A DNA stretch of 35,408 bases from an uncultured beta proteobacterium (GTDB taxonomy: Bacteria > Pseudomonadota > Gammaproteobacteria > Burkholderiales > Burkholderiaceae_C), in NCBI GenBank assembly GCA_903856025.1, contig CAIOAQ010000231.1, positions 1 to 35,408 of the forward strand, written 5' to 3'. Of the stretch, positions 13,616 through 34,162 are shown one piece after another (the stretch's first letter is position 1; each line of letters starts with the position of its first letter). The notes beneath the pieces are model-generated. The model had not been told where the DNA came from and did no database searches. It saw nothing but the letters and a program-made list of their open reading frames with translations. The position numbers and the translations under genes were made by a program.

Positions 13616-13620
13616 TACCT

Positions 13621-14983: not shown

Positions 14984-17900
14984 ATGAGCATTCACCCGGA
15001 TCTGACCAAAAAATTTGAACTTTTCAAGCCTGCGATGGCTTTTTTGTTATTTTTGGGGCTCTCCGTTGCGGGCTCTCTTTGGGAGAAACGCACCGTCGAA
15101 CGTGAGGCGCAGGAGCAAGTCCAGCGCATTGCAGAACGTCTGGCTGGCGATGTAGAAGAACGGCTGCAAAACATCATTTCCGGCTTGAACGGTGCCAAAG
15201 GCGCTTTTGCAATCACTGCACTCACACGTTCACAATTCCGGACCTATGTGGCATCTCGCGACATGGCCAGGGAGTTTTCTGGTGTCCATGGCTTTAGCTT
15301 CAACCAGCGGGTCTTGCGCACCGACCTTGATCAATTTACCCGTGCTGTTCAGGCCGACGGAGTCCAAGACTTTTCGCTGCGCCAGCTCGAACACACCCAC
15401 CATGACGACCTGTACATCGTCAAATACATCGAACCCATGGCCAGCAATGCCGCTGCACTTGGACTGGACTACGGCTCGGAACCGGTGCGCCGAAATGCTG
15501 TGTTACAGGCCATGGACAGCGGGTTGCCAACCATGAGTGCCATTACCACGCTCGCCCAAAGCAGCCCGGCCGAGCCGGCTGTTCTCTTGATGGTTCCGGT
15601 CTACAACGCGGGCGAGGCACCTGCAAATGTGTCCGAACGCCGCAACAAATTGCACGGTGTCCTGGTTGCACCGGTGGTGGTGTCTGAGCTGCTTCACGGC
15701 GTGCAAAAGTCGTATGCCAACCTGGTTGATTTGCAGATTTACGACACCACCGATGGCAACAACCACTTGGCCTACAACTCGGACCATGACGAAGCCGACG
15801 AAGCCTCTTTTGAACCTGGGGCCGAAAGCCATTTCTACATGGCTCAAAGCCAGGTGAAACTCATGGGGCGGCAGTGGTCCTTGCATGTTCGTTCTGAAGT
15901 TGGGTTTCAGGACACTGTGAAATACACCGTTGCTTGGCTGATATTGATTGGTGGAACCTCACTGGGGCTGCTGCTGGCGCTGAACCTTCGAGCGCAGGGG
16001 CGACTTTACACAGCGACCACTGCACAGGTGGATGAGCGTACCCGCGAGCTCAAGCTTGAACGAAGACGCCTGGAAACCATCTTTGAGACCGTCACAGATG
16101 GAATTTTTATCGTGGATGAAACCGGCCTGTTGCTGGAAGCAAACGGTGCTTTTCTGAACTTGCTCGGGCTTGACGGCTGCGCGTTCGGCCGGTTTCGAAT
16201 TCAGGACTGTGATGTGAAATATGAATCGACAGTGATTCAAAAAAATTTAGAAACGCTCACCACAGAGCAGTCGAGCATGCACAACCGGAGTCAATTCAAG
16301 ACGACGCAGGGCCAGATCATCGACGTCGAGATCAGTGCAAAAGGCAGCAGCAAAGAAGGGCGAAAACGGGTTTATTGCACAGTGCGCGACATCACGGAAC
16401 GCCTGCGCCGTGACAAGGGGACCCAACGCGCAGAAAGCCTTCTGCACACAGCACTCGATGTCATCGATGAAGCCTTTGTGATTTATGACCAGCAAGACTG
16501 CTTGGTGTACTGCAATGACAAATACCGCCAAATTTACGCCCCTGTGTCTGACCTGATGGTGCCTGGCACCACTTTTGAAACCATCATCCGCGCAGGAGCC
16601 ATGCGTGGTGACTACCTGGATGCAGTTGGACGGGTGGACGAATGGGTGGCTGAGCGCCTGGCGGTGCATCGCCAAAGCAACAGCCGCCTGATCCAGCGCC
16701 TTGACACGGGGCGCGTGTTGCGCATTGTTGAGCGTCGCACCGATGAAGGACTGATTGTTGGATTTCGTGTGGACATCACCGAGCTTGAAAATGCCAGACT
16801 GGCCGCCGAAGCCGCCACGGTGGCCAAGAGCCAGTTTCTGGCCGCAATGAGCCACGAAATTCGTACCCCCATGAACGCTGTGCTGGGGATGCTGAGCTTG
16901 CTCAAGGGAACACCACTGAACCGGCAACAGATCGATTACGCCGAGAAATCAGAAACAGCGGCCAAGTCGCTGTTGGAACTGCTCAACGAGATTCTTGATT
17001 TTTCAAAAGTCGAATCAGGCATGCTCATGCTTGATATACGCCCAATGCGGCTCGATCAACTGATGCGCGACCTTTCGGTGATTTTGTCGGCCAACCTGGG
17101 GCGCAAGCCTGTTGAACTTTTGTTTGAGATGGACCCGCAATTGCCTGAGGTGGTCAGCAGTGACCTGCTGCGCCTCAAGCAGGTGTTGATCAACCTGTGC
17201 AGCAACGCGCTCAAATTCACCAGCGAAGGTGAGGTCCGCGTGTCGCTCAAACTGGAGCGGCGCGAGGGCGATGTGGCCTGGATAGAGTTTGGCGTCAATG
17301 ACACCGGCATTGGCATTGCACATGACAAACAAGCAACCATTTTTGAGGCATTTACACAGGCCGAGGCGTCCATCACACGTCGCTTTGGCGGAACGGGTCT
17401 GGGTCTGGCCATCAGTAAAAAGCTGGTGCACTTGATGGCTGGAGACCTGCAGGTCAACAGCACGCCCGGACAGGGAAGCAGGTTTTACTTTTGCCTGCCC
17501 ATGCAGGTGGTCACGCAGGCGCAGCCCGAAGTGATCGCCGTGGACGACACGCCAGCATTGCCGCATGAAGTCGAGGTTTTGGTAGTGGATGACAACCGCG
17601 CCAGCCTTGACCTGATGGTGGGCATGCTCAACACACGTGGCCAGCAGGCAACCGGTGTCTTGAGTGGTGCACAGGCACTGCAATTGCTTCATGAAAGGTG
17701 TGCGGCAGGTCGAAAACCTTTTGATGTGGTGCTGCTGGACTGGCAAATGCCAGACATGGATGGCTGGGACACGGCACGGCGCATCAAAGCGATCGATTTT
17801 GGCCAGCAACCTCAGCCACGCCTGATCATGGTCAGTGCCCAGGGCACGGCGTTGTTGGCTGACCGCACCGCAGAAGATCAAGCATTGCTCAGTGGCTTTT

Positions 17901-18817
17901 TGACCAAACCCGTCAGTCCCGGCATGCTGCTTGAAGCCCTTGCCCATACCAGTGAGGGCCATCACTACGTTTCCAAAGTCGCATGCGGGCAGCACGGCCT
18001 GGAGCGCATGCGCATTCTGGTGGTGGAGGACAATTTGCTGAACCAGCAAGTGGCTGAAGAGCTGCTAACCCGTGAGGGCGCATTGGTGTCCTTGGCTGCC
18101 AATGGCCGCCTCGGTGTAGAGGCGGTTGCCACAGCCGAAATACCGTTTGACGTGGTGCTCATGGACTTGCAGATGCCGGTACTGGATGGGTGGGCCGCCA
18201 CACGCGAAATTCGGCAAACCCTGGGCTTGAAGTCCCTGCCCATCGTTGCCATGAGCGCAAATGCCATGCCCGAAGACAGGGCTGAAAGCATGTCGGCGGG
18301 CATGAACGAACATGTCTCCAAGCCCTTTGATATTGAGCAGTTGGTGATGCTGTTGCGCCGATTGCTCGGGTGGTCTGAGCTGCCAGCAACGGACAAGCCA
18401 GCAAGGCTGAACCACACCATGCAAGCGCAGGCTCCGTTTGAGCCGGAGAACCCGATGGGGGTGATCGACTTTCAGCAGGCACTGAAATGGACAGGAGGCG
18501 ACACCACGCTGTACCTCCATTTTGCCCGCACCTATATGCAAGACGTCGCCAACTACCCGGAACTCCTGGCACAACACCTGGCCCGAGGCGAGCAACAGGA
18601 CGCGATGCGCATCATGCACACGCTTAAAGGTCTGTCGGCCACCGTCGGTGCGCGCAATTTGGCCGATTTTGCCGACAAGCACGAGCATGCCCTGAAGGCG
18701 CAGATGCCCGAACCACAAGACATCAACACCCTGGTTGAGCAAGTGCGCGGCGGCATCGAAGCGGCCCGCGCTGAAATTGGGCGCATTACAGAGAAAATTG
18801 ACGCTCAGCTGATTTGA
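14984..18817 (+). CDS. CHASE-domain hybrid sensor histidine kinase (CHASE-PAS-PAS-HisKA-HATPase-REC-REC-Hpt)
   Basis: N-terminal TM; CHASE-like GAKGAFAITALTRSQFRTYV...GVHGFSFNQRV; FLAAMSHEIRTPMNAVLGML; FGGTGLGLAISKKLV; two receivers (VLLDWQMPDMDG, VLMDLQMPVLDG); Hpt MHTLKGLSATVGA. Confidence 0.94.
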   Translation: MSIHPDLTKKFELFKPAMAFLLFLGLSVAGSLWEKRTVEREAQEQVQRIAERLAGDVEERLQNIISGLNGAKGAFAITALTRSQFRTYVASRDMAREFSGVHGFSFNQRVLRTDLDQFTRAVQADGVQDFSLRQLEHTHHDDLYIVKYIEPMASNAAALGLDYGSEPVRRNAVLQAMDSGLPTMSAITTLAQSSPAEPAVLLMVPVYNAGEAPANVSERRNKLHGVLVAPVVVSELLHGVQKSYANLVDLQIYDTTDGNNHLAYNSDHDEADEASFEPGAESHFYMAQSQVKLMGRQWSLHVRSEVGFQDTVKYTVAWLILIGGTSLGLLLALNLRAQGRLYTATTAQVDERTRELKLERRRLETIFETVTDGIFIVDETGLLLEANGAFLNLLGLDGCAFGRFRIQDCDVKYESTVIQKNLETLTTEQSSMHNRSQFKTTQGQIIDVEISAKGSSKEGRKRVYCTVRDITERLRRDKGTQRAESLLHTALDVIDEAFVIYDQQDCLVYCNDKYRQIYAPVSDLMVPGTTFETIIRAGAMRGDYLDAVGRVDEWVAERLAVHRQSNSRLIQRLDTGRVLRIVERRTDEGLIVGFRVDITELENARLAAEAATVAKSQFLAAMSHEIRTPMNAVLGMLSLLKGTPLNRQQIDYAEKSETAAKSLLELLNEILDFSKVESGMLMLDIRPMRLDQLMRDLSVILSANLGRKPVELLFEMDPQLPEVVSSDLLRLKQVLINLCSNALKFTSEGEVRVSLKLERREGDVAWIEFGVNDTGIGIAHDKQATIFEAFTQAEASITRRFGGTGLGLAISKKLVHLMAGDLQVNSTPGQGSRFYFCLPMQVVTQAQPEVIAVDDTPALPHEVEVLVVDDNRASLDLMVGMLNTRGQQATGVLSGAQALQLLHERCAAGRKPFDVVLLDWQMPDMDGWDTARRIKAIDFGQQPQPRLIMVSAQGTALLADRTAEDQALLSGFLTKPVSPGMLLEALAHTSEGHHYVSKVACGQHGLERMRILVVEDNLLNQQVAEELLTREGALVSLAANGRLGVEAVATAEIPFDVVLMDLQMPVLDGWAATREIRQTLGLKSLPIVAMSANAMPEDRAESMSAGMNEHVSKPFDIEQLVMLLRRLLGWSELPATDKPARLNHTMQAQAPFEPENPMGVIDFQQALKWTGGDTTLYLHFARTYMQDVANYPELLAQHLARGEQQDAMRIMHTLKGLSATVGARNLADFADKHEHALKAQMPEPQDINTLVEQVRGGIEAARAEIGRITEKIDAQLI

Positions 18818-18892
18818 TGCTCTGTGCACAACAACCGGGTGCCAAAAACCAATGCACACCGCACAGGCGCCTCATTTCTGAGCCAGCGGCGT

Positions 18893-20056
18893 TCAAACTG
18901 GCGACGATTTCTCCCCTGCAACAATTTTCAAGAACTCGGATTTTTGCTGCAGTTCATCGTCGCTGTCGGCAAAGCGCCGCGCAATGTCCTGAAATTCATC
19001 GCCAAGGGCCAAAAAGGCATCGACAATGTCAGGGTCAAAATGTTTTCCACGCCCTTCGACGATGATTTGTGTGGCTTTTTCGTGGCTCATGCCTTCCTTG
19101 TAGACGCGCCGGCTGATCAATGCGTCATAAACGTCGGCCAAGGCCATAAAGCGCGCTGCGATTGGAATGTTGTCGCCGGCCAAGCCTTGCGGGTAGCCCG
19201 ATCCATCCCACTTTTCGTGGTGCGAATAGGCAATTTGCTTTGCGATCTCCAAAAAACCCATCGACTCGCCAACCTCCTCTTGGGCATGCATCAGCGCCTC
19301 GTATCCCAACTTGGTATGGGTTTTCATGATGTCGAACTCAAAGGGTTCATAGCGACCTGGCTTGAGCAAAATTCTGTCAGGAATTCCGACTTTACCTATG
19401 TCGTGAAGCGGTGCGCACTTGAATATCAAATCGATAACGCTTTCATTTAGATAGGACGAGAACCGTGGGTGCTTGCATAAGTGCCGCGCCAGTACACGAA
19501 TGTAGTTTTGTGTCCGGCGCAAATGGTTCCCTGTGTCGAGGTCGCGCACCTCTGCAAGGGAGGCCAGCGCCAAAATCGTGACCTGCTGTAATGCGGCGTT
19601 TTCACGGCCACGCTTGGCTACTTCAAACTCCAGGTATTCATTGTTTACCCGCATGGTGCGGGCATACGATGCATCACGAAAATGCGCTTTGACACGCGAG
19701 AGCAAGATCTCAGGGTTAATTGGACGGGTGATGTAATCCACTGCGCCAAGTGCCATGCCAATTTCTTGACTTTCCGTCTCGGTCTTGCTGGTTAGAAAAA
19801 TGATCGGGATGTGCTTGGTGTGACTGTCTGCCTTGAGTTGACGGCACACCTCGTAGCCGCTTACATCCGGCATCACAATGTCCAGCAAGATCAAATCCGG
19901 TTGTTCTTCACTGGCGGCTTTAAGCGCTTTGCTTCCATGATTGACAGCCCGCACGGTATAGGACTTGTGCAACAGGCCGCCCAAGAGAGTCAGGTTGGCT
20001 GGTGAATCGTCAACGATCAGGACGCTGGGTTTAACCGGGTTAAATATGTCCATCAC
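18893..20056 (-). CDS. REC-HD-GYP response regulator, putative c-di-GMP phosphodiesterase
   Basis: VLIVDDSPANLTLL, LILLDIVMPDVSG; HDIGKVGIPDRILLKPG, HHEKWDGSGYPQGLAGDNIPIAARFMALADVYDAL. Confidence 0.95.
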   Translation of the reverse strand: MMDIFNPVKPSVLIVDDSPANLTLLGGLLHKSYTVRAVNHGSKALKAASEEQPDLILLDIVMPDVSGYEVCRQLKADSHTKHIPIIFLTSKTETESQEIGMALGAVDYITRPINPEILLSRVKAHFRDASYARTMRVNNEYLEFEVAKRGRENAALQQVTILALASLAEVRDLDTGNHLRRTQNYIRVLARHLCKHPRFSSYLNESVIDLIFKCAPLHDIGKVGIPDRILLKPGRYEPFEFDIMKTHTKLGYEALMHAQEEVGESMGFLEIAKQIAYSHHEKWDGSGYPQGLAGDNIPIAARFMALADVYDALISRRVYKEGMSHEKATQIIVEGRGKHFDPDIVDAFLALGDEFQDIARRFADSDDELQQKSEFLKIVAGEKSSPV

Positions 20057-23000
20057 GTTCTTTCAGGTTCAAATGGTTGTCGGCAGCTGCAACTGCCATC
20101 TGCAAGGTACCAAGTGCCTCGCCGAAATCAAAATTTACGATCTGGTGTTCGAGTTCTGCAAAAGAATCTCCCACGGCAGTTTGTAACATGGCAGCCTTAT
20201 CGCGAAGCCACTGCACGGCCTCGACATTGTCGGTTCTCAGCAGGTCGGCCAATTCATTGCAGGCCAATCTCAGCTCGTCGGGGGATGCACGCCCAGAAGT
20301 CGGAATTGCCACTTCTTTCGATAACAAAACAAGCTCTATCCCTTGTTTTAATTGATCTAAATGCTTCCATAAAGATAGCATATCCAAGGAAGTATCAGGC
20401 CAGGTGGCACGCTCGGCCAGGACCTCGCCCAACGTCTTTTCAAGCTCCGCACTCATGGCGCTGCAGGAGGTCGCACCAATGTTGCCCGCCATGCCCTTGA
20501 GGTTGTGCACCAGTCGCGCTGCCTGATTCCAGTGCCCACCGGCAAGTGCTGCGTTCAACAAACCGGGCAGGTCGCGGATGCTGCCAAGAAATTGACCGAG
20601 CAAGTCGATGTACAGCGTTTGGTTGCCTGCGCACAGGCGCAGACCCAGAGCCAGGTCAATGCCAGGAATGGACAGTTGGTCTGCAAAAATGTGCGGTTGC
20701 GCCTTTGAATTGCCCTGCGCAACACGGTCTTGAGATCTCGATGCCGCGGCGTCCATGATCAGGGGTTGCTGGTTGGACGAAGGTTCGCGAACAATGCCGT
20801 TCTTTCCCCACTGCGCCACGCAGGCAAACAACGCATCCGGGTCAATCGGCTTGGACAGGTGGGCATTCATGCCATCGGCCAGGCAGCGCGCAATTTCATC
20901 GGCACTGGCGTGGGCCGTCAGTGCAATGATGGGCAGGTTCTTGAATCGTTCGGATTGACGCAACGTGACCGTGGTCTGGTGGCCGTCCATCACTGGCATT
21001 TGCAAATCCATCAGCACCAGGTGATAAGGCAATGGCTCAGACGCTTGGTGCAGCAGCTCAAGTGCCCGTTGACCGTTGTCGGCCAGCGTCACACGCGCGC
21101 CAGCGGACTCCAACAGCTCTCGGGCAATTTGTTGGTTGATCGCGTTATCCTCAACCAGCAGCACAGACAGGCCGTCAAGTGCAGGAAGACTCACTTCATG
21201 CAAAGGACCTTGATGCTGTACAGTGCCCTGCACCACCCCGCCATCGGCGAGCCCGTGAAGGCTTTGTTGAGAGCCTTGTTCCAGCCAAACCGTCGCCGTA
21301 AAGGTGCTGCCCTCACCCAACGTCGACTCCACGCTGACGTGACCATCCATCATGGTCACCAGCCGATGGGTGATGGCCAGTCCCAACCCTGTGCCGCCGT
21401 AACGACGCGTGGTGGAACTGTCGGCCTGGTTAAACGAGGTAAACAGCGCGCCGATTTGTTGCGCGGTCATGCCGATGCCGGTGTCTTGCACCGCCACGCT
21501 CAGCTGCACGCGGTCACCCACCGGAGAACGGCCAGACAACACAGCCTGCCGCTGCGACAACGCCACCGTGACGGTGACCTTGCCATGTTCGGTAAATTTG
21601 ACGGCGTTGCTGATCAGGTTGGTCAACACCTGCTTCAAGCGCAGGGAGTCGCCCACCAGCTCGTTTGGCACCGAGGGCTGTACATTGATCAGAACCTGCA
21701 GGCCCTTGGCCTGCGCCGGCTGTGCTACCAGCGTACAAACGCTGTCAAGGACATGGTCCAGGCAAAACGGCACGGATTCCAGCGTCAACTTTTCCGCCTC
21801 AATTTTGGAGTAATCAAGCACATCGTTGATGATGTCCAGCAGGGCTTTGCCCTCAGAGTGAATTTTTTGAATGTAATCACGCTGCTGGTCGCTTAACGAG
21901 GTCTTGAGTGCGAGGTGAGCCAGACCTATTACCGCGTTCAATGGGGTGCGGATTTCGTGGCTCATGTTGGCCAAAAAATTGCTCTTTGCGCGCGTGGCCT
22001 CCTCAGCTAAAGCCCGAGACTTTTGCGCAATTTCAAACTGCTGGTGCAATTCTTCAGCCTGGTTGAGCAGATCATCTTCAGAAAGCTGTAAGCGATGCGT
22101 TTGCGCCTGGGTTTCTTCAAGCAACTCGCGCGCCAAACGGCTGCGCTCGAGCCTCTCAAGATTCAGCGACACCAGCGGGAGAAGTTCATCCAGCAACGCC
22201 TGGTGGCGCGGCTCGAATGCACCCATGCTGCACAGTTCCAGCACCGCCAACACCTTGCCGTCGCCAACGCTGAGTACCGGCACAAGCAGCACACTGCGCG
22301 GCTGCGCATTGACAAGACCGGAACTCATACGCAGGTGCGTTTGCCCCACATCACTCAAGCGCATCGGGCTCGCCTGCTTGGCGCACATACCAACCAAGCC
22401 TTGCCCGAGGGCAAAGCTTTCGGGCAGACTTTCAGGTGCTTCCAAACCCGTGCCGCCACAATAAACATAGTGTTGCTGCGCTTGATTCCATACATAAAGC
22501 AGGCTGGTTTGTGCACCCGTCAGTGGGGTGATTTGCGCCAACAAGGCCGCAGCAAATTCGTGCTGCGACTCGACCTTGAGGACGCGCTTAAGCACCTCTG
22601 CGACTGTTGCCTTGACCCAATGCTGGATGGTCACTTCACGTGCAGCCTGCTGCAGCACGGTGATGGATCGGGCCATGTCACCAACTTCATTGTCAAAATC
22701 CAGGTGCGGCACCGGGGCGTCCAACTTGCCCTTGGCCAGCCCTTCGATATAGGTACGCAAATGATCGATGGGGCGTCGAACCGAAGCCGCCGTGAGCACA
22801 CCGGTAGCCGAGCCAAACAGCAAAGCGGTGAGCAGCAGTGCCACGCTCAGGTGCTCTGACTCTTTTGAAAATGACTGTGCTTCTTTCCAAAATTGTTGCA
22901 CCTCGTCTTCTTTGTTCTGAACTAAGTGATCAATCAGCCGGTCACTTTCGTCATAGACGGCAGAACTGTCCTTTTTGTACAACCAAGCTGCCGCACTATC

Positions 23001-23519
23001 AATCGGGAAACTTTGGTCGGCGTTGATGCTGACAAGCACTTCGTCCACATCATGCAGATAGCGCGTCACCGCATCGCGCAGCGCGCCATGGAGCCGCGCA
23101 TTGTCCGGCTCAGCAAAGTAGGGTTTGGTTTGCTCCAGGCTGAACAGCAGCTGCTGGCGTGAGTTGTGCAGCTTGCGCAGTATGTTCTGCCGCTCCGAGG
23201 GGTTCTGGGTTAACAATATTTGCAACAAATAGCGTCCCACACCCGTGATGCCAATGTGGGCTTCTTTGATTTCCGATATGGCTTTTACCTCCATATCATG
23301 CATGTGCTGCATCATTTCGGCATGCTGACGGCCACTGTAATAAGCGTTCAGGCCAAGCAACAACGCAATACCCAACAGCACAGACAACCCCCTGCGCAGT
23401 TTGCTGGCCAGCGTCAGGCTGTCAAAATGTCGGTTCAGTCGCTCCACTTCATGGCCCTTTAACGCAGGCTCAACTAAAGTCACCGGGTCGGGTGTCTTGA
23501 ATGCTTTCCAACGGGACAT
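20040..23519 (-). CDS. Hybrid sensor histidine kinase (TM-HAMP-GAF-HisKA-HATPase-REC-Hpt)
   Basis: FLANMSHEIRTPLNAVIGLA, YGGTGLGLAITHRLV, VLLVEDNAINQQIA, LVLMDLQMPVMDG, Hpt LVHNLKGMAGNIGA. Overlaps the HD-GYP start by 17 nt. Confidence 0.94.
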   Translation of the reverse strand: MSRWKAFKTPDPVTLVEPALKGHEVERLNRHFDSLTLASKLRRGLSVLLGIALLLGLNAYYSGRQHAEMMQHMHDMEVKAISEIKEAHIGITGVGRYLLQILLTQNPSERQNILRKLHNSRQQLLFSLEQTKPYFAEPDNARLHGALRDAVTRYLHDVDEVLVSINADQSFPIDSAAAWLYKKDSSAVYDESDRLIDHLVQNKEDEVQQFWKEAQSFSKESEHLSVALLLTALLFGSATGVLTAASVRRPIDHLRTYIEGLAKGKLDAPVPHLDFDNEVGDMARSITVLQQAAREVTIQHWVKATVAEVLKRVLKVESQHEFAAALLAQITPLTGAQTSLLYVWNQAQQHYVYCGGTGLEAPESLPESFALGQGLVGMCAKQASPMRLSDVGQTHLRMSSGLVNAQPRSVLLVPVLSVGDGKVLAVLELCSMGAFEPRHQALLDELLPLVSLNLERLERSRLARELLEETQAQTHRLQLSEDDLLNQAEELHQQFEIAQKSRALAEEATRAKSNFLANMSHEIRTPLNAVIGLAHLALKTSLSDQQRDYIQKIHSEGKALLDIINDVLDYSKIEAEKLTLESVPFCLDHVLDSVCTLVAQPAQAKGLQVLINVQPSVPNELVGDSLRLKQVLTNLISNAVKFTEHGKVTVTVALSQRQAVLSGRSPVGDRVQLSVAVQDTGIGMTAQQIGALFTSFNQADSSTTRRYGGTGLGLAITHRLVTMMDGHVSVESTLGEGSTFTATVWLEQGSQQSLHGLADGGVVQGTVQHQGPLHEVSLPALDGLSVLLVEDNAINQQIARELLESAGARVTLADNGQRALELLHQASEPLPYHLVLMDLQMPVMDGHQTTVTLRQSERFKNLPIIALTAHASADEIARCLADGMNAHLSKPIDPDALFACVAQWGKNGIVREPSSNQQPLIMDAAASRSQDRVAQGNSKAQPHIFADQLSIPGIDLALGLRLCAGNQTLYIDLLGQFLGSIRDLPGLLNAALAGGHWNQAARLVHNLKGMAGNIGATSCSAMSAELEKTLGEVLAERATWPDTSLDMLSLWKHLDQLKQGIELVLLSKEVAIPTSGRASPDELRLACNELADLLRTDNVEAVQWLRDKAAMLQTAVGDSFAELEHQIVNFDFGEALGTLQMAVAAADNHLNLKERDGHI

Positions 23520-25584
23520 TCACGCTGTTGTCGTTACGCAGCGTGGTATAGGCCGGCAGGCAAATCTGCACGCAGGTGCCTTTGCCGGGCGTGCTTTCCA
23601 GGTGAATCTCGCCGTGGTGCAGATCAATGATTTCTTTGACGATGCTCATCCCAAGACCTGTACCCAAAACCTTACCGGAAGTGTCTGCACGGTAAAAGCG
23701 CTCGAATACCCGCTGAAGTTGTTCTGGTGTCAGACCAATGCCATGATCGGTGATCTCAATGCACACCATGCAAGTCTGGTCTGATTGTTCATTGACCCAG
23801 GCACGGATAAGCACTGTTCCACCCTTGGGCGAATACTTGTAGGCGTTAGAAAGCACGTTGATGAGCGCTTGGCGCAGCTTGCCTGAATCGGCCATAAGGT
23901 ACAGCGGTTGTGCAGGCAAGTCCAACTCGGGCGCGGTGCGCTGTGCCGGCAGTGGCAGTCCCTTGATCACCTCGGTCAACAGCTCCTGCATGTGCACCAA
24001 GGTGTAGCGGAAGTCCTTGCTGCGCCGTGCTTCGATGCGCGCCAGGTCAAGCAGTTCGTTGAGGATGTTGGCCATCAGCGTGGACTGGCTGTAGATGGTG
24101 TCGAGCATCTCATGGCGGGTGGGTTCGTCAAACTCTGCATGCAGCAAAACTTCAGAGTAGCCCAGAATGCTCGCCATGGGGGTACGCAACTCATGGGCAG
24201 CAGTGGCCAAGAATTCGCTTTTCAGGTGTTCAACTTCGTTTTCGCGTGTGATGTCGCGCAGATACAAGATCTGCGACACCGCCCGTGAGGAACTGACACG
24301 CAACCCCACTTCCAACACCCGTTTGACTGGTTTTTCAAGTTCAAACACTTCGCGATGGTCCAATGTTCCCTGCGTGACTTTTGCGTGTAGCGCGGCGATA
24401 CCGGAAAAGGCCAGGTTGGGTGCGCAACGTTCTATCAGCCATTCAGAGATTTCCAGCTCATTGCAACCGTGCAGCACGTCAGTGCCCTGGCCGGTCATCG
24501 AACGAAACGCCGGGTTGATGTAAGTCACCCGTTTCTCGCTGTCAAACGACACAAAGGCATCTGGGCTCAATTCAAAAATGGCATTGAGTTGCTCATTGCG
24601 TTCTTCAATCTGCTTTTGCGCCCTTTGGCGGTTGTACATGGCACGGCGCAACTGGATCAGGTAGCGGGTGAGCGCGGCAGCCAACGCGACGATGAGCAAG
24701 CTCACCATGGAAGCCTGAAGTAACAGTGCCTCCTTGCTTCGTTGATGGCTGGCAAGCACGTATTTGATGTCCTGAGCGTCGATTACGAACAGGTTGTAGC
24801 CCGGGATTTTTCGGTAGGAATACAAGCGCTCGATCCCATCGACGAGCGAACGATTGGTGAAACTTCCCATCGTTTCGCCACGGTTAATAGCCGCCAGCGC
24901 ATAGGAATCCGAGGGGATCGTTCCAAACTCATCGTTATCACCGACCCTGCGCACACGCGCTACTCCATCAAGTCCATACAAGGCCGCCATTCCCCGGCTG
25001 CCCAACTGCAGCTCGCCATAAAAGCGTGTGAAGTAGTCCACCGCGATCGACACCACCACCACACCGGCAAATTCCCCATTGGCACGGGTAATGCGGCGTG
25101 TGAGCTGGATAGACCACTTGCCGCTGGCACGCCCTAACACCGGTTTGGAGACAAATAGTTCACCGGTATCGGCTGCCACATGGACTTTGAAGTGCTCGCG
25201 GTCGGACAAATCCATCGGCGTTGGAATGGGCAGATTGGCCAGTATGTACATGCCATTGGCGTCGATGATGCCGACTTGCGGAAAAAGTTCGGCATCAATC
25301 ACACCCTTTCGAGTAAGTTCGGTCAGATCAATTTTGTTACCGATTTCAAGGTACCGTGACTGGATAAACCGTATGACCTGATCGACCGCGCGGAAAGTCC
25401 GGTTGGCGTGTTCCTGGCTGACTCGCGTCAGGTTGGACAGGTCACGTTGTGCATTGCTGATTTCTCTGGTGTGACTTTCGCTTATCAACCGGGCAACATG
25501 CCACCAGGACAGCCCTGTCAACAACAATGCGGTGAACCAAAGAAAAATGAGGATTCGGCGGTACTTGGAGACAATGGCTGGCAT
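23470..25584 (-). CDS. Membrane sensor histidine kinase (periplasmic sensor-PAS-HisKA-HATPase)
   Basis: Two TM segments flanking a Cache-like region; PAS; FLATAAHELRTPMASILGYSEVL; NVLSNAYKYSPKGG; VLGTGLGMSIVKEIIDLHHGEIHLES. Confidence 0.93.
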   Translation of the reverse strand: MPAIVSKYRRILIFLWFTALLLTGLSWWHVARLISESHTREISNAQRDLSNLTRVSQEHANRTFRAVDQVIRFIQSRYLEIGNKIDLTELTRKGVIDAELFPQVGIIDANGMYILANLPIPTPMDLSDREHFKVHVAADTGELFVSKPVLGRASGKWSIQLTRRITRANGEFAGVVVVSIAVDYFTRFYGELQLGSRGMAALYGLDGVARVRRVGDNDEFGTIPSDSYALAAINRGETMGSFTNRSLVDGIERLYSYRKIPGYNLFVIDAQDIKYVLASHQRSKEALLLQASMVSLLIVALAAALTRYLIQLRRAMYNRQRAQKQIEERNEQLNAIFELSPDAFVSFDSEKRVTYINPAFRSMTGQGTDVLHGCNELEISEWLIERCAPNLAFSGIAALHAKVTQGTLDHREVFELEKPVKRVLEVGLRVSSSRAVSQILYLRDITRENEVEHLKSEFLATAAHELRTPMASILGYSEVLLHAEFDEPTRHEMLDTIYSQSTLMANILNELLDLARIEARRSKDFRYTLVHMQELLTEVIKGLPLPAQRTAPELDLPAQPLYLMADSGKLRQALINVLSNAYKYSPKGGTVLIRAWVNEQSDQTCMVCIEITDHGIGLTPEQLQRVFERFYRADTSGKVLGTGLGMSIVKEIIDLHHGEIHLESTPGKGTCVQICLPAYTTLRNDNSVNVPLESIQDTRPGDFS

Positions 25585-25627: not shown

Positions 25628-27802
25628 TCAGAGTGTGCGGCCATAACATGCCAGCAATGCGTCTGGAGTCATGGGTCGCCCGGTTAAATAGCCCTGTATC
25701 AACGGGCAACCTTGGTCAATGAGGGTTTGATGCTGCTCTGGGGTTTCAACCCCTTCCGCAATCACATCCATACCCAGCGCCAGTGCCATGTTGATGAAAC
25801 ACTGGCTGATGGCTTGTGCCTTTTCACAAGTGGGCAAGTCGCGAACAAAGCTTTGATCAATTTTCAGGCAACTCACTGGCAAAAACTGTAACCTGGACAA
25901 GCTGGAAAATCCGGTGCCAAAGTCATCAATCGCAAGCTTGATGCCCAATGCCTGCAAGGGCAGCAGGTAGTGGTGGCCATCGCTTTCGGCACCCAGTGCC
26001 TCGGACTCGGTGATTTCAAGTTCCAGGTCTTGCGGGTCGGTATCCGTTTGCGACAAAATTTCTTCGACACGCCGGACAAAATCGGGGTTGGACAACTGGC
26101 GAGCAGACACATTCACCGACATGGTGATGCGGTGCAAACCTGCTTGACGCCACTGCTGGAGTTGTCGGCATGCTGTTTCCAGAACCCAGTCACCAATCGG
26201 AAGAATGGCACCGTTGGTCTCGGCAACCGGAATGAAGGTCGCAGGCGGCACGTTGCCGAGTACCGGGTGTGTCCAGCGCAGCAGTGCTTCACAACCACGC
26301 AAATATCCATCATGAGTTACCTGCGGCTGGTAAACCAAGTGCAGTTCCTGATGCACCACGGCGTGCCAAAGTGTCAGACCCAAATTGGCCAATGCGCTGT
26401 GGTTCCCATCGGCATCGTGAAAACAGAAGTGATTGCCCCCGCAGCTCTTCGCTGCGTACATCGCCTCATCGGCGTATTGGAGCAGCGTAGCGGTATCAGT
26501 CGCATCTTTTGGATAACGCGCACAACCGATACTTGCCCCTATCACCAGTTGGTTGTCGCCCACGACGATGGGCACAGTCAACGCAGTTAGAACATCAACA
26601 ACTATTTCTTGAATGTCCTGCGTCTTTCCTGCGCTTTGCAACAAAATTACAAACTCATCGCCACCCACGCGCGCCGCCGTATCGCCCTGTCGCACCGACG
26701 TTGAGAGTCGCCTGGCAACCTCTTGCAACACGCTGTCGCCCACCGCATGCCCTAAGGTGTCGTTGACAGGTTTGAATCGGTCCAGGTCAATGTAGATTAG
26801 GCTCATGGCAGTACCGTTACGGTGCGCCAGCTTGAGCGACTGGGTCATTCGGTCTTCCAGCAACCGACGGTTGGGCAGGCCGGTCAATGCATCGTGGTTG
26901 GCCAGGTGTGCAAGCTCTTCTGTGTCGTTGTGATGCGAGCTGTCAGTCAGCAAGGCGAGGTAGGCGAGAGTCGTTCCAAGTGCATTTTTTACCACCTTGA
27001 CGGTTATCCATTCAGGATAGATCTGACCATTCTTTCGACGATTAAAAAACTCACCTGACCAGCTGCCTTCATCAATCAAACCACCCCAAAAGGCTTTATA
27101 AAACGCGATGTCGTGGCGGCCCGAGCTGAACAATCTTGGCGTATTTCCAATCATCTCATCGGACTCAAATCCGGTGATTTTGCTCAACGCAGTGTTGACA
27201 TCGCAGATGCGATCCTGTGCATCAGTCATCAGCATGCCTTTGCTGCTGTGATGAAACAGTTGGAAACTTCTTAATCTCGACACATCGTCAACATTGCCGG
27301 AGTTGGTCGGCCTCAGGAGCCAAAAATACTCCATTTGCGCATAGGTCTTCAACGGCACAATCAAGACGTCAAAGCAGGTCACGCTGTCAAAATCGCGACC
27401 ATCAAAAAAATTGATTTGACGCATCTCGATGGCTGCATTGTGTGTCGTAGCTCGCAACTGCTCGAGCAATGTGGACAAACTCGCACGCTGCTTGTTCGGT
27501 GCCAAATTCAAAATGGGTAACCCGGACCAGTGCATTCCGGACTCGCCAAGAAGTGGCTCTGTATTGGCGCTCACCTGGGTAATGTTGCCCGCAGCATCGG
27601 TGATCAAATAAGGCGTCTCACCCTCAAGCAGCTGAAGCATCCACAAGTCGCGGCTCAAACTGGTGCGCCCAAGTGACTGTAATGCTGACTGATGCCGTTG
27701 CTGAAGTTTGCTGTGTTGCTCAATCAGTTCCTGAAGATCCGTTGCATAACGAAATAACTGGTCTTGCAGAAGCATCTCGCCCGTTGGTTTCTGTGCATTC
27801 AT
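25628..27802 (-). CDS. PAS-GGDEF-EAL protein
   Basis: YIDLDRFKPVNDTLGHAVGDSVL, ARVGGDEFVILL, CEALLRWTHP, LELEITESEAL, LAIDDFGTGFSSLSRL, LKIDQSFVRDL, AEGVET. Start set to ATG at 27802, because the extension to 28183 lies over the neighbouring gene and paralogues begin at the matching coil. Confidence 0.93.
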   Translation of the reverse strand: MNAQKPTGEMLLQDQLFRYATDLQELIEQHSKLQQRHQSALQSLGRTSLSRDLWMLQLLEGETPYLITDAAGNITQVSANTEPLLGESGMHWSGLPILNLAPNKQRASLSTLLEQLRATTHNAAIEMRQINFFDGRDFDSVTCFDVLIVPLKTYAQMEYFWLLRPTNSGNVDDVSRLRSFQLFHHSSKGMLMTDAQDRICDVNTALSKITGFESDEMIGNTPRLFSSGRHDIAFYKAFWGGLIDEGSWSGEFFNRRKNGQIYPEWITVKVVKNALGTTLAYLALLTDSSHHNDTEELAHLANHDALTGLPNRRLLEDRMTQSLKLAHRNGTAMSLIYIDLDRFKPVNDTLGHAVGDSVLQEVARRLSTSVRQGDTAARVGGDEFVILLQSAGKTQDIQEIVVDVLTALTVPIVVGDNQLVIGASIGCARYPKDATDTATLLQYADEAMYAAKSCGGNHFCFHDADGNHSALANLGLTLWHAVVHQELHLVYQPQVTHDGYLRGCEALLRWTHPVLGNVPPATFIPVAETNGAILPIGDWVLETACRQLQQWRQAGLHRITMSVNVSARQLSNPDFVRRVEEILSQTDTDPQDLELEITESEALGAESDGHHYLLPLQALGIKLAIDDFGTGFSSLSRLQFLPVSCLKIDQSFVRDLPTCEKAQAISQCFINMALALGMDVIAEGVETPEQHQTLIDQGCPLIQGYLTGRPMTPDALLACYGRTL

Positions 27803-27806: not shown

Positions 27807-29306
27807 TTAACTCGGTCCAATCTGGTCGTAGCTGGTTTCAATGCATTCAGTGCGCGCATCGTTTTCAAAAAAGCAAAAGCGCAAATTGAATTGCCTTGCG
27901 GCGTAGGTGGCCGCATCAGCGCAATAGAAAAGGTCGGCGGCGGCCTCGCCATCCTGAGGGAAACGCGCGCACCCAACGCTGGCCTGAATCTCGAACGCAT
28001 GGCCACCCACATGCAACGGCGTGTCCAGCAACTGCAAAATCTGGTTGGCAATGTTCTCGATAATTTCGGAGCTGGCCAGAGTGGGCAGCAAAATGGCAAA
28101 CTCGTCATCACCAATTCGCGCCACCATGTCACCACCTCGCACAGCGAGTTGCAGCTTGCCACTGATGGTCTGCAGGATCTCATCGACTGCTTCGCCTGCT
28201 ACCTTGCCATTGAGACGCTTGAAATGGTTCAGGTCCACAATCAACAGGCCAAGTTCGGCAGAATGGGTTTTGGCATGCTCGATCGCCTGCTTCAACGTTC
28301 TATCAAGGAGTCTTCGGTTGGGCAAGCCCGTCAATGCATCGTGAAATGCCATTTGAGCAAGCTGCTTGTGATCGTTCGCGCTGGGCGACTTGTCTGCAAA
28401 AACAGCCATGTATGAAAGAGTCTGCGTGTGGATGTTCTTGATAGCCTTGATGGTCAACCATTCAAAAAATATCTGCCCGTTCTTGCGTCGATTAAACATT
28501 TCGCCGCTCCAACTTCCACTGAGCCGCAACTTGTTCCACATGGCGCGGTAGAAGGTCGGTTCTTGTAGACCGGAGTTGATCAATCGAGGGTTTTTTCCAA
28601 GAACTTCCGACTCGGCATAGCCAGTGATTTGCGTAAATCCGTCATTCACATATTGAATTTCAGCCGCTTCATTTGTAATCATCAAACCTTCAAAGACCTC
28701 TGCCATGGCCGGAATCCGAAGATTCCACACATTGGAAGCGACACCTTCCAGCGTTGGAGAAGGGATCAGAAGCCAGTAGATTTCTGTACGATCGCGCTTG
28801 CGCACGGGCATCAACAGCGCGTCATAAATCCGAGCTTCATCGCGCTTTAAAGGCCCAAAGAATGGCAGTGTGCAATGTGCAATTGCCGCATCTTCGCGGT
28901 CAGTGGACCATTGCTGCAACATCTTGGCAATAAGTGGCCGATTCTGTTGCGACAATAAATCAAAGATTACCTTTCCCATCAAGGAAGAAGTGCCTTCAAA
29001 GCCCAACTCGCGATGAGCGGCCGAACTGGTTGCAACGATGGCACCCCTGAGGTCGGTCACCAAATGGATGTCGATACAGCGCGTCAACGCATCAAGCATC
29101 AAGTCATCGTCTTGCCCGCCGCGACCCAAAGCGTTGATCATGATTTGATTGCGCTGGTGCAATGCACTTTGCTGCGAAAGAAGTTCTTGCAGATCTTCAG
29201 CGTAGCGCAGCATCTGCTGTTGAAAATCAATGGTGGTTGGTGCACTCATAACTTCTGAAAAATGCAACATTCGATTTTGGAAATAAATGTTGGTCGGCGC
29301 ACTCAT
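27807..29306 (-). CDS. PAS-GGDEF-family protein with degenerate signature (GDDEF)
   Basis: PAS block SGSWSGEMFNRRKNGQIFFEWLTIKAIKN; DALTGLPNRRLLDRTL; LLIVDLNHFKRLNGKVAG; ARIGDDEFAILL. Confidence 0.89.
   Translation of the reverse strand: MSAPTNIYFQNRMLHFSEVMSAPTTIDFQQQMLRYAEDLQELLSQQSALHQRNQIMINALGRGGQDDDLMLDALTRCIDIHLVTDLRGAIVATSSAAHRELGFEGTSSLMGKVIFDLLSQQNRPLIAKMLQQWSTDREDAAIAHCTLPFFGPLKRDEARIYDALLMPVRKRDRTEIYWLLIPSPTLEGVASNVWNLRIPAMAEVFEGLMITNEAAEIQYVNDGFTQITGYAESEVLGKNPRLINSGLQEPTFYRAMWNKLRLSGSWSGEMFNRRKNGQIFFEWLTIKAIKNIHTQTLSYMAVFADKSPSANDHKQLAQMAFHDALTGLPNRRLLDRTLKQAIEHAKTHSAELGLLIVDLNHFKRLNGKVAGEAVDEILQTISGKLQLAVRGGDMVARIGDDEFAILLPTLASSEIIENIANQILQLLDTPLHVGGHAFEIQASVGCARFPQDGEAAADLFYCADAATYAARQFNLRFCFFENDARTECIETSYDQIGPS
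29193..29306 (-). repeat. Imperfect 57-nt tandem duplication at the 5' end of the GDDEF gene
   Basis: Units 29250-29306 (MSAPTNIYFQNRMLHFSEV) and 29193-29249 (MSAPTTIDFQQQMLRYAED), each beginning with ATG. Confidence 0.85.
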
Positions 29307-29354: not shown

Positions 29355-30749
29355 TCAGGCCTCGTGCATGGCACAGCTGATGCCTTGCCGCCTTGCCATT
29401 TGCATGGCGCTACGAGCATGGTCGATCAAGCCGCGCACGTCTACTTTCAAATTCCAATGTGCATAACCGATGCGGGTAGTGACCACCAGGTCATGTTGCA
29501 CCGCATGGATTGACTCAGACAACGCACTTAGCAAGGTATTTACCAATGTCCGGGCACAAGCGTTGTCAGTGACATTGCTGAGCATGACCACAAACTCATT
29601 GCCGCTCAGGCGCGCAGCCACGTCTCCAGTGGGCAACCAGGCCTTCAGGCGCGCGCTGTACAGCTCCATCAGGCGATCTCCCACGTCGTGCCCAAGTTCG
29701 TTGGCGATGTCGCGAAAACGCTCAAGGCTTATCGACAGCACATACAAACCGTTGTTTGCCGGACTATTGGCCTTCATGGTTTGGCTCAAGCGCTCTTCAA
29801 ATAGGCGTCGATTTGGCAGTCCAGTCAGCGGGTCATGGTGGACTTCAAGTTCGAGTTGTTTCTGCAAGTTTCCGTTCGAGGACATGTCGCTAAACGTGGC
29901 GAAATACGCACAGGTTTTTCCTTGTGCATCCTTCACTACTTTGACGTTTGACCAATTGAGAAACAATTGCCCGTTTTTGCGGCGGTTGAAGAACTCGCCG
30001 CTCCAACTTCCTTCGGTATGCAAAGCTGACCAGAAGTTCTGGTAAAAGACGGTATCTTGCAGGCCTGAGCTTATTTTGTTTGGGTTTTGCCCCAGCACTT
30101 CGTCCGGTTTGTAACCGGTGATCTGACTGTAGGCAACGTTGGAAGCGATGATTTCGGCATTTTCGTTGGTGAGCAACAGAGCCACTTGGCCGCTATTTGA
30201 CAGCGCCAGCAGGCGCAAAAGTTCCGGTGTGGAAGCAGTTGCCAGCACCGGTGGACTCAACAGCCAGTAAATTTCAATTTGGTCTGCATCGGCCGAGCGC
30301 AGCACCAACGCATCAAAAGCCACTGGCGCGACGGAAGCGGCCTGCCCTTGTGGATGGAGTCGTGTTTGATAGATGGCACCCGATCCATTGTCGCCAACGA
30401 ATGTATTGAGCAGCGACTGGATGTTTGCACGGCACTCGGCGCGCATGAGTTGTTCAATCGGGAGCCAACTCAGGCTCTGGCCGTTTTGCGCGAGCGCCCG
30501 TTCAGCAGAAGGGCTGGCGTGCAAAATCTCACCAAGTGCACTGGTCACCAAGTACCTGTCAAATGCCTTAAGAATCGTGTTGAGCAACAAATCATCGTTC
30601 ACATCGCAATGGCCTATGAACTGCAGCACCTTTTGATGGTGCTGTTGCAGGGCGCTTTGCTGGCGCATCAGCTGTTGCAGGTCTTGGGCATACTGCAGAA
30701 GCTGACGTTGCACCAAATCTATGTTTGGCGCCAATGTGCGCGAACTCAT
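29355..30749 (-). CDS. PAS-GGDEF-family protein with degenerate signature (SGNEF)
   Basis: PAS block EGSWSGEFFNRRKNGQLFLNWSNVKVVKD; DPLTGLPNRRLFEERL; VLSISLERFRDIANELGHDVGD; ARLSGNEFVVML. Confidence 0.89.
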   Translation of the reverse strand: MSSRTLAPNIDLVQRQLLQYAQDLQQLMRQQSALQQHHQKVLQFIGHCDVNDDLLLNTILKAFDRYLVTSALGEILHASPSAERALAQNGQSLSWLPIEQLMRAECRANIQSLLNTFVGDNGSGAIYQTRLHPQGQAASVAPVAFDALVLRSADADQIEIYWLLSPPVLATASTPELLRLLALSNSGQVALLLTNENAEIIASNVAYSQITGYKPDEVLGQNPNKISSGLQDTVFYQNFWSALHTEGSWSGEFFNRRKNGQLFLNWSNVKVVKDAQGKTCAYFATFSDMSSNGNLQKQLELEVHHDPLTGLPNRRLFEERLSQTMKANSPANNGLYVLSISLERFRDIANELGHDVGDRLMELYSARLKAWLPTGDVAARLSGNEFVVMLSNVTDNACARTLVNTLLSALSESIHAVQHDLVVTTRIGYAHWNLKVDVRGLIDHARSAMQMARRQGISCAMHEA

Positions 30750-31108
30750 TTCACGTGGCTCCGAATCCAGGCGACGACCTGCAATGGACTGAAAGGCTTG
30801 ATGAAATACGCGTCGGCGCCGCGCTTGCGGGCATCATCGCCATCAGCAACCTGACCGCGCGCGGTCACCATGGCAACCAGGGTATCGCGGGTGGCTCGAT
30901 CCTTCTTTATGGCATCCAGAACCTGCAAGCCGTCCATCTCGCCAGGCATCATCACATCAAGCAAGACGGCTTTGGGGCGGTGGTGTCGCACAGCCTCCAG
31001 TGCGCTGACACCGTCTTCCGCCTCGATGATGTTGAACTCCTTGCCCAGCGTGATGGACAACAAGCGCCGAATGTCCGAGTGATCGTCAACGATAAGAATG
31101 GTGGTCAT
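30746..31108 (-). CDS. Stand-alone receiver-domain response regulator
   Basis: MTTILIVDDHSDIRRLL, AVLLDVMMPGEMDG, YFIKPFSP. Start placed at ATG 31108, since the longer ORF runs into the upstream gene. ATGA overlap with the next gene. Confidence 0.93.
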   Translation of the reverse strand: MTTILIVDDHSDIRRLLSITLGKEFNIIEAEDGVSALEAVRHHRPKAVLLDVMMPGEMDGLQVLDAIKKDRATRDTLVAMVTARGQVADGDDARKRGADAYFIKPFSPLQVVAWIRSHVK

Positions 31109-31130: not shown

Positions 31131-32261
31131 TTAGTTGGTGGTAAGAAGTTGTGAAAGGTCAGTCGCATAGGCTTGCGCCTGCAGGGTGTAACGGCAACTA
31201 GAACAGGACTCACGACTGCGCTCTTGCAATGGCAATCCTGTGGCCAACGTCAGGGTGAAGGATTCAATCGGTGGATTGGCAGGATCCTGAGACGGCCCCA
31301 AAGGCAATACCTCAAGCTTGAGCTGTCCGCCCTGCAAGGCAAGAATGCGTCGGCACATGAGCCACCGAACGCTGTCATCGCTCAAGGGGCTTTTTGCGGC
31401 GCTGGATTCGCCCGAATGGGTTGCGACAACCGGCCTGACCTTGCGCCGAGCAGTGGCGTTCGTCACACGAGCGGTAAGGACAACAAAATTGCCCAACTGG
31501 CGCAAAGATACAGCGACCAGACTGCGTACCGGTGCACTGTCTTGTAACGCATCAAATAGAACCCGCAAGGCATAGCTCATCCAGGCGGCATGACCATAGA
31601 CAACGCCAAGCCCTGAGCCGTCTTGGGTCAATTCAAATCTGGGTTGATCTGGATCCGGGCTGACCGGCGGGAAGCTGCCGTTGATCAAGGTTGGCAAGTC
31701 CAGCCTCTCATCGGCAAATACCTCGTCGCGTTGCATCAGCAGCGTCAGGTCAGAAAGTTGCTGTAGCAACGTGAGTACACTTTGACTCTGACTGCCTACT
31801 GCTTCGATGTCACGCATGGAATTGCCAGCTTGCGGATTAAGCAACATTTGCAGAGCGCAAAGTTGGGCGCGTGCCTCCTCCCCGAGCAAGAGAAGAAAAC
31901 TTTTTTCCGCGACTGAATTAGCACGCAATTCTTCTCTATCCCCTGTATTTTCAGGTGATGGTGCTATATAAATTGCATAATCACGGCGCCCATTTCTGAT
32001 CAGCCAGACCGAAGCAGTCACTTTGTCGTCGTCGGTTCGAACTTGCCAGTTACCCAATTTGACAGGCAACTTGACACGAGATCGCACCTCCAGGTCAATC
32101 AGCACCTTGATTGCACTGCTGCGCGCCATGATCTGCTTGACCCAAGGAAGTGCGGCCTGGTTGTGGGTTGTGACTTGGGCCAGATGATCAAGCAGGATCA
32201 CCCCTTCGGACAGGGTGTCCATCAGTGGAGCGTCAAAGTTCAGGCGCGTGGTTGCAGTCAT
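31131..32261 (-). CDS. Degenerate histidine-kinase-like protein (PAS-like, pseudo-HisKA, pseudo-HATPase)
   Basis: LSEGVILLDHLAQVTTHNQAAL (PAS-like); EKSFLLLLGEEARAQLCALQMLL aligned to an H-box; GHAAWMSYALRVLFDALQDSAP and VRWLMCRRILALQGGQLKLE aligned to the N and G regions. Family call by motif alignment only. Confidence 0.6.
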   Translation of the reverse strand: MTATTRLNFDAPLMDTLSEGVILLDHLAQVTTHNQAALPWVKQIMARSSAIKVLIDLEVRSRVKLPVKLGNWQVRTDDDKVTASVWLIRNGRRDYAIYIAPSPENTGDREELRANSVAEKSFLLLLGEEARAQLCALQMLLNPQAGNSMRDIEAVGSQSQSVLTLLQQLSDLTLLMQRDEVFADERLDLPTLINGSFPPVSPDPDQPRFELTQDGSGLGVVYGHAAWMSYALRVLFDALQDSAPVRSLVAVSLRQLGNFVVLTARVTNATARRKVRPVVATHSGESSAAKSPLSDDSVRWLMCRRILALQGGQLKLEVLPLGPSQDPANPPIESFTLTLATGLPLQERSRESCSSCRYTLQAQAYATDLSQLLTTN

Positions 32262-33139
32262 GGCGCTGGTGCATTAAAAAAAGCCGTTTCGTGGTTGGCA
32301 CGCGACTCAATGCGACCGAAAAGGTGGCGCGCAGAGTCGTCCCAGATCAGGCCAAGTTGCTCGCAGGCGGTGAGGGAAAGGTTTGTCACACGGTTTTCTG
32401 CCCGTGCGACCAGATCAAGCGCATTGCTGAGCACTTCTGCGACCTGCACAAGCGCTACCAGTGGATTGCTCGCAACGATTTTTCCATCATGGTGCCCAGA
32501 CACGGCTTCAGCCATCGCTTCTGGCAGCGCCCAGTGCTCCAGCAACCAGGCGCCTACGCATCCGTGTCCAATACCAAAATGCTCTCGCTCGACTTGTTCG
32601 ATATCCACTGCACGGTCACGCGCCACGCCCCGGCAAAAGTGCGCAAGCTTTGGGTCAAAGTGATACAACCAGAGTTGCCCAATGTCATGCACCAGCCCGG
32701 CAAGAAGCGCCATGGAGGGTGCTACGTCCAAACCGCAATGAATAGCAAGCTCCTCGCAGCAGATTCCAACCGCGACGCTGTGCGTCCAATAGGCATTGGG
32801 CAACCCATTTCGTGCTGCACCGTTTACAAAAGTGCTCAAACTGCTGATGAGCGCAATATGCCTCAGGCGGTTCAGGCCAATGAGCGAAGTCGCTGCGGAA
32901 ATGTCGTTGATTTCAGTCGTACGGGTACCGCGCAATGCAGCCGTGTTGGCCAACGAGATTACCCTCGCACTGATCAACGGGTCGCGACGAATGGCACGTA
33001 CCAAAATATCAAGGTTACTGTCAGGGTCGTCAAGTGTGTTGACAATTTCCACCACCACACAGGGAAAGCTTGGCAGGCTTCGACTGCGCGCAATCACGAG
33101 TTCGCGAGTTATCGGTGCGAGGTTCATGGCCCCCATCAT
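32258..33139 (-). CDS. HDOD-domain protein
   Basis: LPSFPCVVVEIVNTLDDPDSNLDILVRAIRRDPLISARVISLANTA; SLIGLNRLRHIAL; MALLAGLVHDIGQLWL. ATGA overlaps at both ends. Confidence 0.91.
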   Translation of the reverse strand: MMGAMNLAPITRELVIARSRSLPSFPCVVVEIVNTLDDPDSNLDILVRAIRRDPLISARVISLANTAALRGTRTTEINDISAATSLIGLNRLRHIALISSLSTFVNGAARNGLPNAYWTHSVAVGICCEELAIHCGLDVAPSMALLAGLVHDIGQLWLYHFDPKLAHFCRGVARDRAVDIEQVEREHFGIGHGCVGAWLLEHWALPEAMAEAVSGHHDGKIVASNPLVALVQVAEVLSNALDLVARAENRVTNLSLTACEQLGLIWDDSARHLFGRIESRANHETAFFNAPAP

Positions 33140-33462
33140 GTGCTCCGATAGATCAGAACCTGATCAAAAAAGTTGGCCATGTATGGTTCGCTGAGATCAG
33201 CACCTTCGAAAATTTCAAGGAGTCGGTGCGCAGCATGCGCGGCGTCATCCGCAACTTGTTCGTCGGATCTGGGATCATCAAGATCCACATCGACAAACTC
33301 TGCGCGATGCGCAATCAACTGGTTTATGTTTTCCTGAGTCAACACAAGACCTGCCGGCAAAGTCATGCTCAGAAAACCTTGCTGGGAAATTTGCATAGGC
33401 GCACTGATCACCATGCCTGGCAACGCCTGTTCGATTGGGAGATAGTGATGTCGTTTTTTCAT
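33136..33462 (-). CDS. Small protein resembling the module often found N-terminal to HD-GYP domains (DUF3391-like)
   Basis: YLPIEQALPGMVISAPMQISQQGFLSMTLPAGLVLTQENINQLIAHRAEFVDVD; overlaps both neighbours by 4 nt. Confidence 0.5.
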   Translation of the reverse strand: MKKRHHYLPIEQALPGMVISAPMQISQQGFLSMTLPAGLVLTQENINQLIAHRAEFVDVDLDDPRSDEQVADDAAHAAHRLLEIFEGADLSEPYMANFFDQVLIYRST

Positions 33463-34079
33463 GAGATTTGGACATCACTTTGACTCGCAATGGCACTGGC
33501 AACTGCGAGCAATCGATCGAACGGAATCGGTTTTGGCAACACTTCCATACCCTCAGGCAAACCGCCTTTATCGGCAATAGCTTGTGCATCCAAACCAGTC
33601 ACCACAACAATCTTTGTATGACGCACTTCCGGTGCAAGCTTGAGCAGTCGCAACATGCTGAATCCGTCCATGCCGGGCATGTGCAAGTCGACAATCAGCA
33701 AGTCTGGACCGCCTCTGCCCAACGCCATCAACGCTGAAACTGAGTTGTCGGTGCAGGTAACCAACGGCTGCATTGGCCAGCGTGACAAGTTCGCTTGGTA
33801 CAGGCGCAACAGGTCAAGGTCATCGTCGACAACCAGAACGCTGAGTTTGCGTGGCTGAGCCTCGGACTTGGTGTGCAACGTGGACTCAACTGGTGCTGGT
33901 GCCTTGCGAAGCAACCGCTCGACCGAATCGCGCATGACGCGGCGGTGCCCCCCCGCCGTCTTCCACGCCTGCAACAAACCATTTTCGACCCAAAGCTGAA
34001 CCGTTCCCACCGAAACCCCCAGCAAGGCAGATGCTTCACGCGTGGTGCAAAAGGATTTCTCAACGGCTACTGAGGACAT
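33459..34079 (-). CDS. HTH (BldC/MerR-like, N-terminal) - receiver response regulator, paralogue of 245-850
   Basis: CTTREASALLGVSVGTVQLWVENGLLQAWKTAGGHRRVMRDSVE; VVDDDLDLLRLY; DLLIVDLHMPGMDG; LPKPI. GGAG lies 9 nt upstream of the chosen ATG. Confidence 0.89.
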   Translation of the reverse strand: MSSVAVEKSFCTTREASALLGVSVGTVQLWVENGLLQAWKTAGGHRRVMRDSVERLLRKAPAPVESTLHTKSEAQPRKLSVLVVDDDLDLLRLYQANLSRWPMQPLVTCTDNSVSALMALGRGGPDLLIVDLHMPGMDGFSMLRLLKLAPEVRHTKIVVVTGLDAQAIADKGGLPEGMEVLPKPIPFDRLLAVASAIASQSDVQIS

Positions 34080-34162
34080 ATAACAAATCTCCGACAGTTC
34101 AAGCACAAAGCCATGTGGCACACGGTATCTTTGATAAACACCTTTGTCATGGCATTTGCAAA

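Follow-up and report, generated by a model that had tools for sequence, protein, structure and literature searches.

Introduction

Spo0B and ChpT are phosphotransferases composed of a DHp domain and a degenerate CA domain; they have lost ATP binding and keep the phospho-accepting histidine. Studies of naturally conserved pseudo-histidine kinases are few, and the papers we found centre on DivL of Caulobacter. DivL is inactive both as a kinase and as a phosphatase but still binds DivK~P, a single-domain regulator, and it has been proposed to act as a DivK~P sensor (PMC4211667). In RetS/GacS and in the pair formed by the ChrS pseudokinase and HrrS, a histidine kinase (HK) is controlled by an HK-like partner (PMC9491836). 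In SiaC-SiaD, a diguanylate cyclase is reported to be activated by a small protein that partners it (PMC8457831).

Here we describe a 376-residue protein encoded in a 35,408-nucleotide stretch of DNA (the window) from an uncultured beta proteobacterium. The original prediction had taken it for a pseudo-histidine kinase, and this identification was borne out by profile comparison, by the absence of all the catalytic boxes and by purifying selection throughout the family: judged from sequence comparison, the protein is a genuine HK-superfamily member that is conserved and non-catalytic. It belongs to a pseudo-histidine kinase family of one bacterial order that is linked to a lone receiver and is previously undescribed in the literature we searched (open-licence papers), where we found no description of it.

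Like DivL, the family combines a PAS, DHp and CA layout with a non-histidine acceptor residue and an association, by gene order, with a single-domain receiver, and its profile matches the DivL structure 4q20 at E = 5.8e-12. However, it comes from another order and shows no sign of orthology; we rejected a DivL orthologue because VicK, HK853 and others outscore DivL and because none of 31 homologues has a tyrosine at the acceptor position, which is variable here, whereas DivL homologues mostly keep a conserved tyrosine. The family also differs from DivL in its genomic setting, a receiver operon that includes GGDEF or HK genes, in having a conserved tail motif, and in its more degraded N and G boxes. 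RetS structures match the family profile as well (1.3e-9), and the resemblance to RetS and ChrS lies in an HK fold and a presumed action on a second HK that does not rely on the protein's own phosphotransfer. In contrast to the window protein, RetS, a hybrid that contains receivers, is encoded away from GacS, and the ChrS pseudokinase arose by a laboratory frameshift that removed the CA domain and is not a conserved family. SiaC-SiaD is a precedent for a GGDEF protein under the control of a small protein that binds it, although SiaC, unlike the partner in the window operon, is not a receiver. The window protein shares with Spo0B and ChpT a DHp plus CA-like fold in which ATP binding is lost, but unlike them it has no histidine in its DHp helix. 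With members in several families of one order, graded loss of the histidine and the ATP site, and a fixed receiver and tail, the family would make the logic of dead kinases comparable across operons.

Results and Discussion

The gene lies in a run of signalling genes on the minus strand, with the following features.

31131-32261, minus strand: pseudo-histidine kinase, 376 aa, with a PAS-like N-terminus, a DHp domain with Glu128 for the acceptor His, a CA domain without N, G1 and G2 boxes, and a C-terminal motif (ATG start; profile alignments)
31878-31880, minus strand: Glu128 codon, aligned with the phospho-acceptor His (hhalign and MAFFT against canonical HKs; counted from the start at 32261)
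31147-31181, minus strand: C-terminal motif QAQAYATDLSQL, kept in all homologues
30746-31108, minus strand: lone receiver that keeps its Asp, Thr and Lys, the family's constant downstream neighbour (Pfam Response_reg, 2.7e-23)
29355-30749, minus strand: PAS-GGDEF protein with degenerate signature SGNEF; N-terminal motif at 30670-30704
27807-29306, minus strand: PAS-GGDEF protein with altered signature GDDEF; N-terminal motif at 29182-29216
25628-27775, minus strand: PAS-GGDEF-EAL protein with canonical GGDEF and EAL signatures; N-terminal motif at 27726-27760 (the longest open reading frame begins at 28183, overlapping the preceding gene)
32258-33139, minus strand: HDOD protein, whose gene overlaps that of the pseudo-kinase at ATGA (Pfam HDOD, 7.3e-45)
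33136-33462, minus strand: protein of 108 aa whose DUF3391 match falls short of the Pfam cut-off (E = 0.067)
33459-34121, minus strand: MerR-type HTH fused to a receiver
23470-25584, minus strand: dCache-PAS-HisKA-HATPase histidine kinase, a candidate for the cluster's active kinase
20040-23519, minus strand: hybrid histidine kinase that carries a receiver and Hpt, another candidate for the cluster's active kinase

The predicted reading frame and its immediate setting were confirmed: the start of the pseudo-kinase gene overlaps the stop of the HDOD gene by four bases, and the lone receiver begins 22 nt past the pseudo-kinase stop. Positions 8955-25584 are rich in signalling genes, among them those for a CheA-like kinase, an MCP, a ParA-like ATPase, a CHASE hybrid HK, the hybrid HK with Hpt, a receiver-HD protein and the dCache HK.

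We gathered 31 homologues from Burkholderiales-level relatives, drawing on genomes of the family, two named MAGs and genomes of the order. At the family level, 26 of 401 genomes gave a match at E<=1e-3, the weakest matches being ordinary HKs; the two MAGs (L031 and L032, a Comamonadaceae MAG and a beta-proteobacterial MAG) encode proteins 53-54% identical to the window protein, and it is from these two that we take the order to be Burkholderiales. Each of the 29 loci examined has a lone receiver downstream of the pseudo-kinase and on its strand, with the DD motif at most 175 nt from the pseudo-kinase stop in 28 of them and 781 nt away in L050. Receivers of this operon type (n = 34, including six from operons without a pseudo-kinase) kept the phospho-Asp and Lys without exception and the Thr in 32 cases. 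The proposed association with a lone receiver is thus strongly borne out as a matter of gene order, and the receiver's catalytic residues are nearly invariant. Among the loci examined, an HDOD partnership is particular to this window, the only one in which the HDOD gene adjoins the pseudo-kinase. A MerR-HTH/receiver fusion is a neighbour in most of the family's operons. Sister operons without a pseudo-kinase (L108-L111 and L113) carry an HTH-receiver fusion, a lone receiver, a GGDEF/EAL protein bearing the motif described below and often an HK; L109 and L113 also carry HDOD and a 108-aa DUF3391-like protein, which adjoins HDOD in both, as in the window.

Because the parts that bind ATP and handle phosphate are lost, yet the gene is kept beside the same receiver in many relatives, the protein probably regulates by binding the receiver or an active kinase and not by catalysis. 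By analogy with DivL, we think the chances slightly favour a pseudokinase kept for binding, which monitors or sequesters the receiver, thereby tuning the output of c-di-GMP or of an HK. In such a scheme the candidate active kinases at 20040-23519 and 23470-25584 would phosphorylate the lone receiver, and the pseudo-kinase dimer would bind it through the former kinase surface, the C-terminal helix or both. Binding would either keep the receiver off the motif-bearing GGDEF/EAL proteins or relay its state to these proteins or to the active kinase; a signal at the PAS-like domain would tune the interaction, and the output in the window's lineage would be c-di-GMP. The original suggestion of a dead-kinase scaffold or receiver-binding switch is a plausible prediction and the best reading of the locus. 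The conserved gene order fits other partners too, namely an active HK or the GGDEF proteins.

The strongest alternative is that the pseudo-kinase, in the manner of RetS or ChrS, pairs with an active HK of the same operon and alters its activity, the receiver being the substrate of that HK and not a ligand of the pseudo-kinase. In clades B and C the receiver gene is usually followed by one for an intact HK, intact HKs lie downstream in the window too, and RetS/GacS and ChrS/HrrS are precedents for such control (PMC9491836). However, in clade A, to which the window belongs, GGDEF or GGDEF-EAL genes and not an HK come right after the receiver, and proximity to the receiver is more constant than proximity to an HK. 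We regard pairing with an HK as an unlikely, though credible, account.

Binding through the C-terminus could involve a tail motif, a similar form of which appears in neighbouring proteins in the window's lineage. All 31 pseudo-kinases end in QxxxYAxD[LMI]xxL or a close variant, and the three GGDEF proteins of the window begin with the same QxxxYAxDLxxL pattern. In its DNA form the motif has ten six-frame matches in the 4.04-Mb genome, four of them within the 4.1-kb stretch of this operon. Clade A cyclases of relatives carry the motif or a close variant at their N-termini, and a profile of the cyclase N-terminus gave matches at E<=1e-5 in nine of 401 genomes, eight being those with a clade A pseudo-kinase, in a test that is partly circular because five of the nine matched genomes supplied profile sequences. 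When a profile was built from the tails, a cyclase N-terminus topped the non-self list, with weak single E-values (at least 0.18). Since the individual E-values are weak, the sharing of the motif between pseudo-kinase tails and cyclase N-termini is suggestive and falls short of proven homology. We found no motif-bearing cyclase in clades B and C, where the receiver is the common neighbour, and this favours the receiver as the docking target.

Taken further, the QxxxYAxDLxxL helix might be a portable receiver-docking element through which the dead kinase and the GGDEF/EAL proteins share one receiver, with the pseudo-kinase acting as a PAS-controlled sink in a c-di-GMP partner switch; we put this forward tentatively, as an idea with odds clearly against it. 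The motif is short enough to be tested readily, and it may link lone receivers with diguanylate cyclases. Of the three GGDEF proteins, two depart from the usual signature (SGNEF and GDDEF), and the L033 counterpart of the first reads GGGDF; the operon may hold dead cyclases besides a dead kinase. Just ahead of the tail motif, Cys353 and Cys356 form a CxxC pair that is invariant in ten aligned clade A sequences and absent from clades B and C; it possibly serves in metal or redox sensing, or may be shared across a dimer.

The residues required for catalysis are gone from the window protein. With profiles of close relatives, hhalign set G127-E128-E129-A130-R131 on the canonical G-H-E-L-R, so the predicted gapless H-box alignment with Glu in place of His was correct (E = 1.9e-13, controls failing). 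No histidine occurs anywhere in residues 118-147, and the absence of a phospho-acceptor is therefore independent of the exact register; a phosphotransferase of the Spo0B/ChpT type was rejected on the same ground. We also considered a register one helical turn further on, at the His of 'RHEL' in L006, L007 and L030: the window protein has Ala132 there, and hence no histidine in either register. The predicted losses in the ATP site were likewise upheld by the alignment. In the N-box region AAWMSYALRVLFDALQDSAP Val and Ala stand in for the two Asn, and the G2 region SDDSVRWLMCRRI has no glycines; the Asp and Gly of G1 are missing too. The position that confers phosphatase activity, a Thr or Asn four residues after the His in HisKA kinases, is Ala in the window protein and is Thr or Asn in none of the 31 homologues.

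Across the family, loss of the histidine is general and loss of the ATP site graded, since the canonical His is missing in 29 of 31 homologues while some members of clades B and C keep the N-box Asn or the G1 or G2 glycines. Clade A has lost the N, G1 and G2 positions as well. The two homologues that keep the His, L009 and L070, are scattered on the tree, L009 being nested among Ser/Thr members. Because of these two proteins, and of the ATP-site residues kept in part of clades B and C, complete inactivity may not extend to the whole family. L067 and L068 keep the N-box Asn and G2 glycines with the His lost (to Ala and Thr), may still bind ATP, and would be useful intermediates.

Glu128 itself could be a functional phosphomimetic that locks the DHp domain in a state resembling phospho-His, given that Glu is found in the window protein and L065 and Asp in six others. 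However, the acceptor column of the 31 homologues (D6, A5, T5, S4, Q3, E2, G2, H2, L1, R1) also holds Ala, Thr, Ser, Gln, Gly, Leu, Arg and His and varies even within clade A. Expected conservation of the Glu was not seen: in orthologues the residue is D, Q, G, A or T, and among wider relatives it is S, D, T, A, E, L, R or, in two cases, H. The data thus give no support for treating the exchange of His for Glu as special, and because Glu is not conserved at this column we rejected a fixed phosphomimetic, which we consider very improbable.

Even less probable is a former kinase that is decaying without function. All catalytic boxes are lost, and one copy, L008, is truncated, in a fragmented assembly. 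Against decay, dN/dS was 0.05-0.3 (NG86, pairs from several clades; only rough for the most diverged pairs, whose dS is high), which indicates working genes under purifying selection as read from codon changes. Apart from L008 the reading frames are intact across the family, and the tail is invariant and the place in the operon constant across families of the order. The window protein thus couples an HK fold without catalytic residues to continued selection.

Descent from HisKA-type kinases was evident from profiles. Searched alone, the window protein matched no Pfam family at E<=1 and gave nothing significant in Pfam, NCBIfam or the PDB; its weak matches were mostly HKs in the correct register (CreC, E = 0.13 in NCBIfam; RetS, E = 0.42). 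A profile of 24 family members matched solved HK structures across PAS, DHp and CA (VicK, 1.2e-16; HK853-type sensor kinases, about 1e-15), and these matches, with those to DivL and RetS given above, answer the question of an unrelated fold. The profile of clade A4, the window's own clade (10 sequences), aligned by hhalign with 13 canonical HKs at a probability of 98% and E = 1.9e-13 over 211 columns, and a profile of the window protein and its two closest relatives did so at E = 1.6e-8. Five column-shuffled HK profiles gave E = 0.18-0.8 over 11-35 columns and a reversed HK profile E = 0.22; all controls together, including a receiver profile, gave E = 0.098-0.8 over at most 35 columns. HATPase_c was matched by 14 of the 24 relatives at E<=0.1, with a best value of 8e-11. 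The predicted PAS-like N-terminus held at the family level, where 3-4 of 24 relatives matched PAS models and the VicK match started at profile position 7, but not for the window protein alone, which matched no PAS model. AlphaFold2, run on three sequences, gave a pLDDT of 36 and the model was set aside; the superfamily assignment is secure without it, because the profile comparisons hold while the shuffled, reversed and receiver controls fail. That the protein is unrelated to HKs and matches their boxes by chance, as its lone searches might suggest, has a next to negligible probability and is refuted by the profile-profile alignments, the failure of the shuffled controls and the HATPase_c matches of its relatives.
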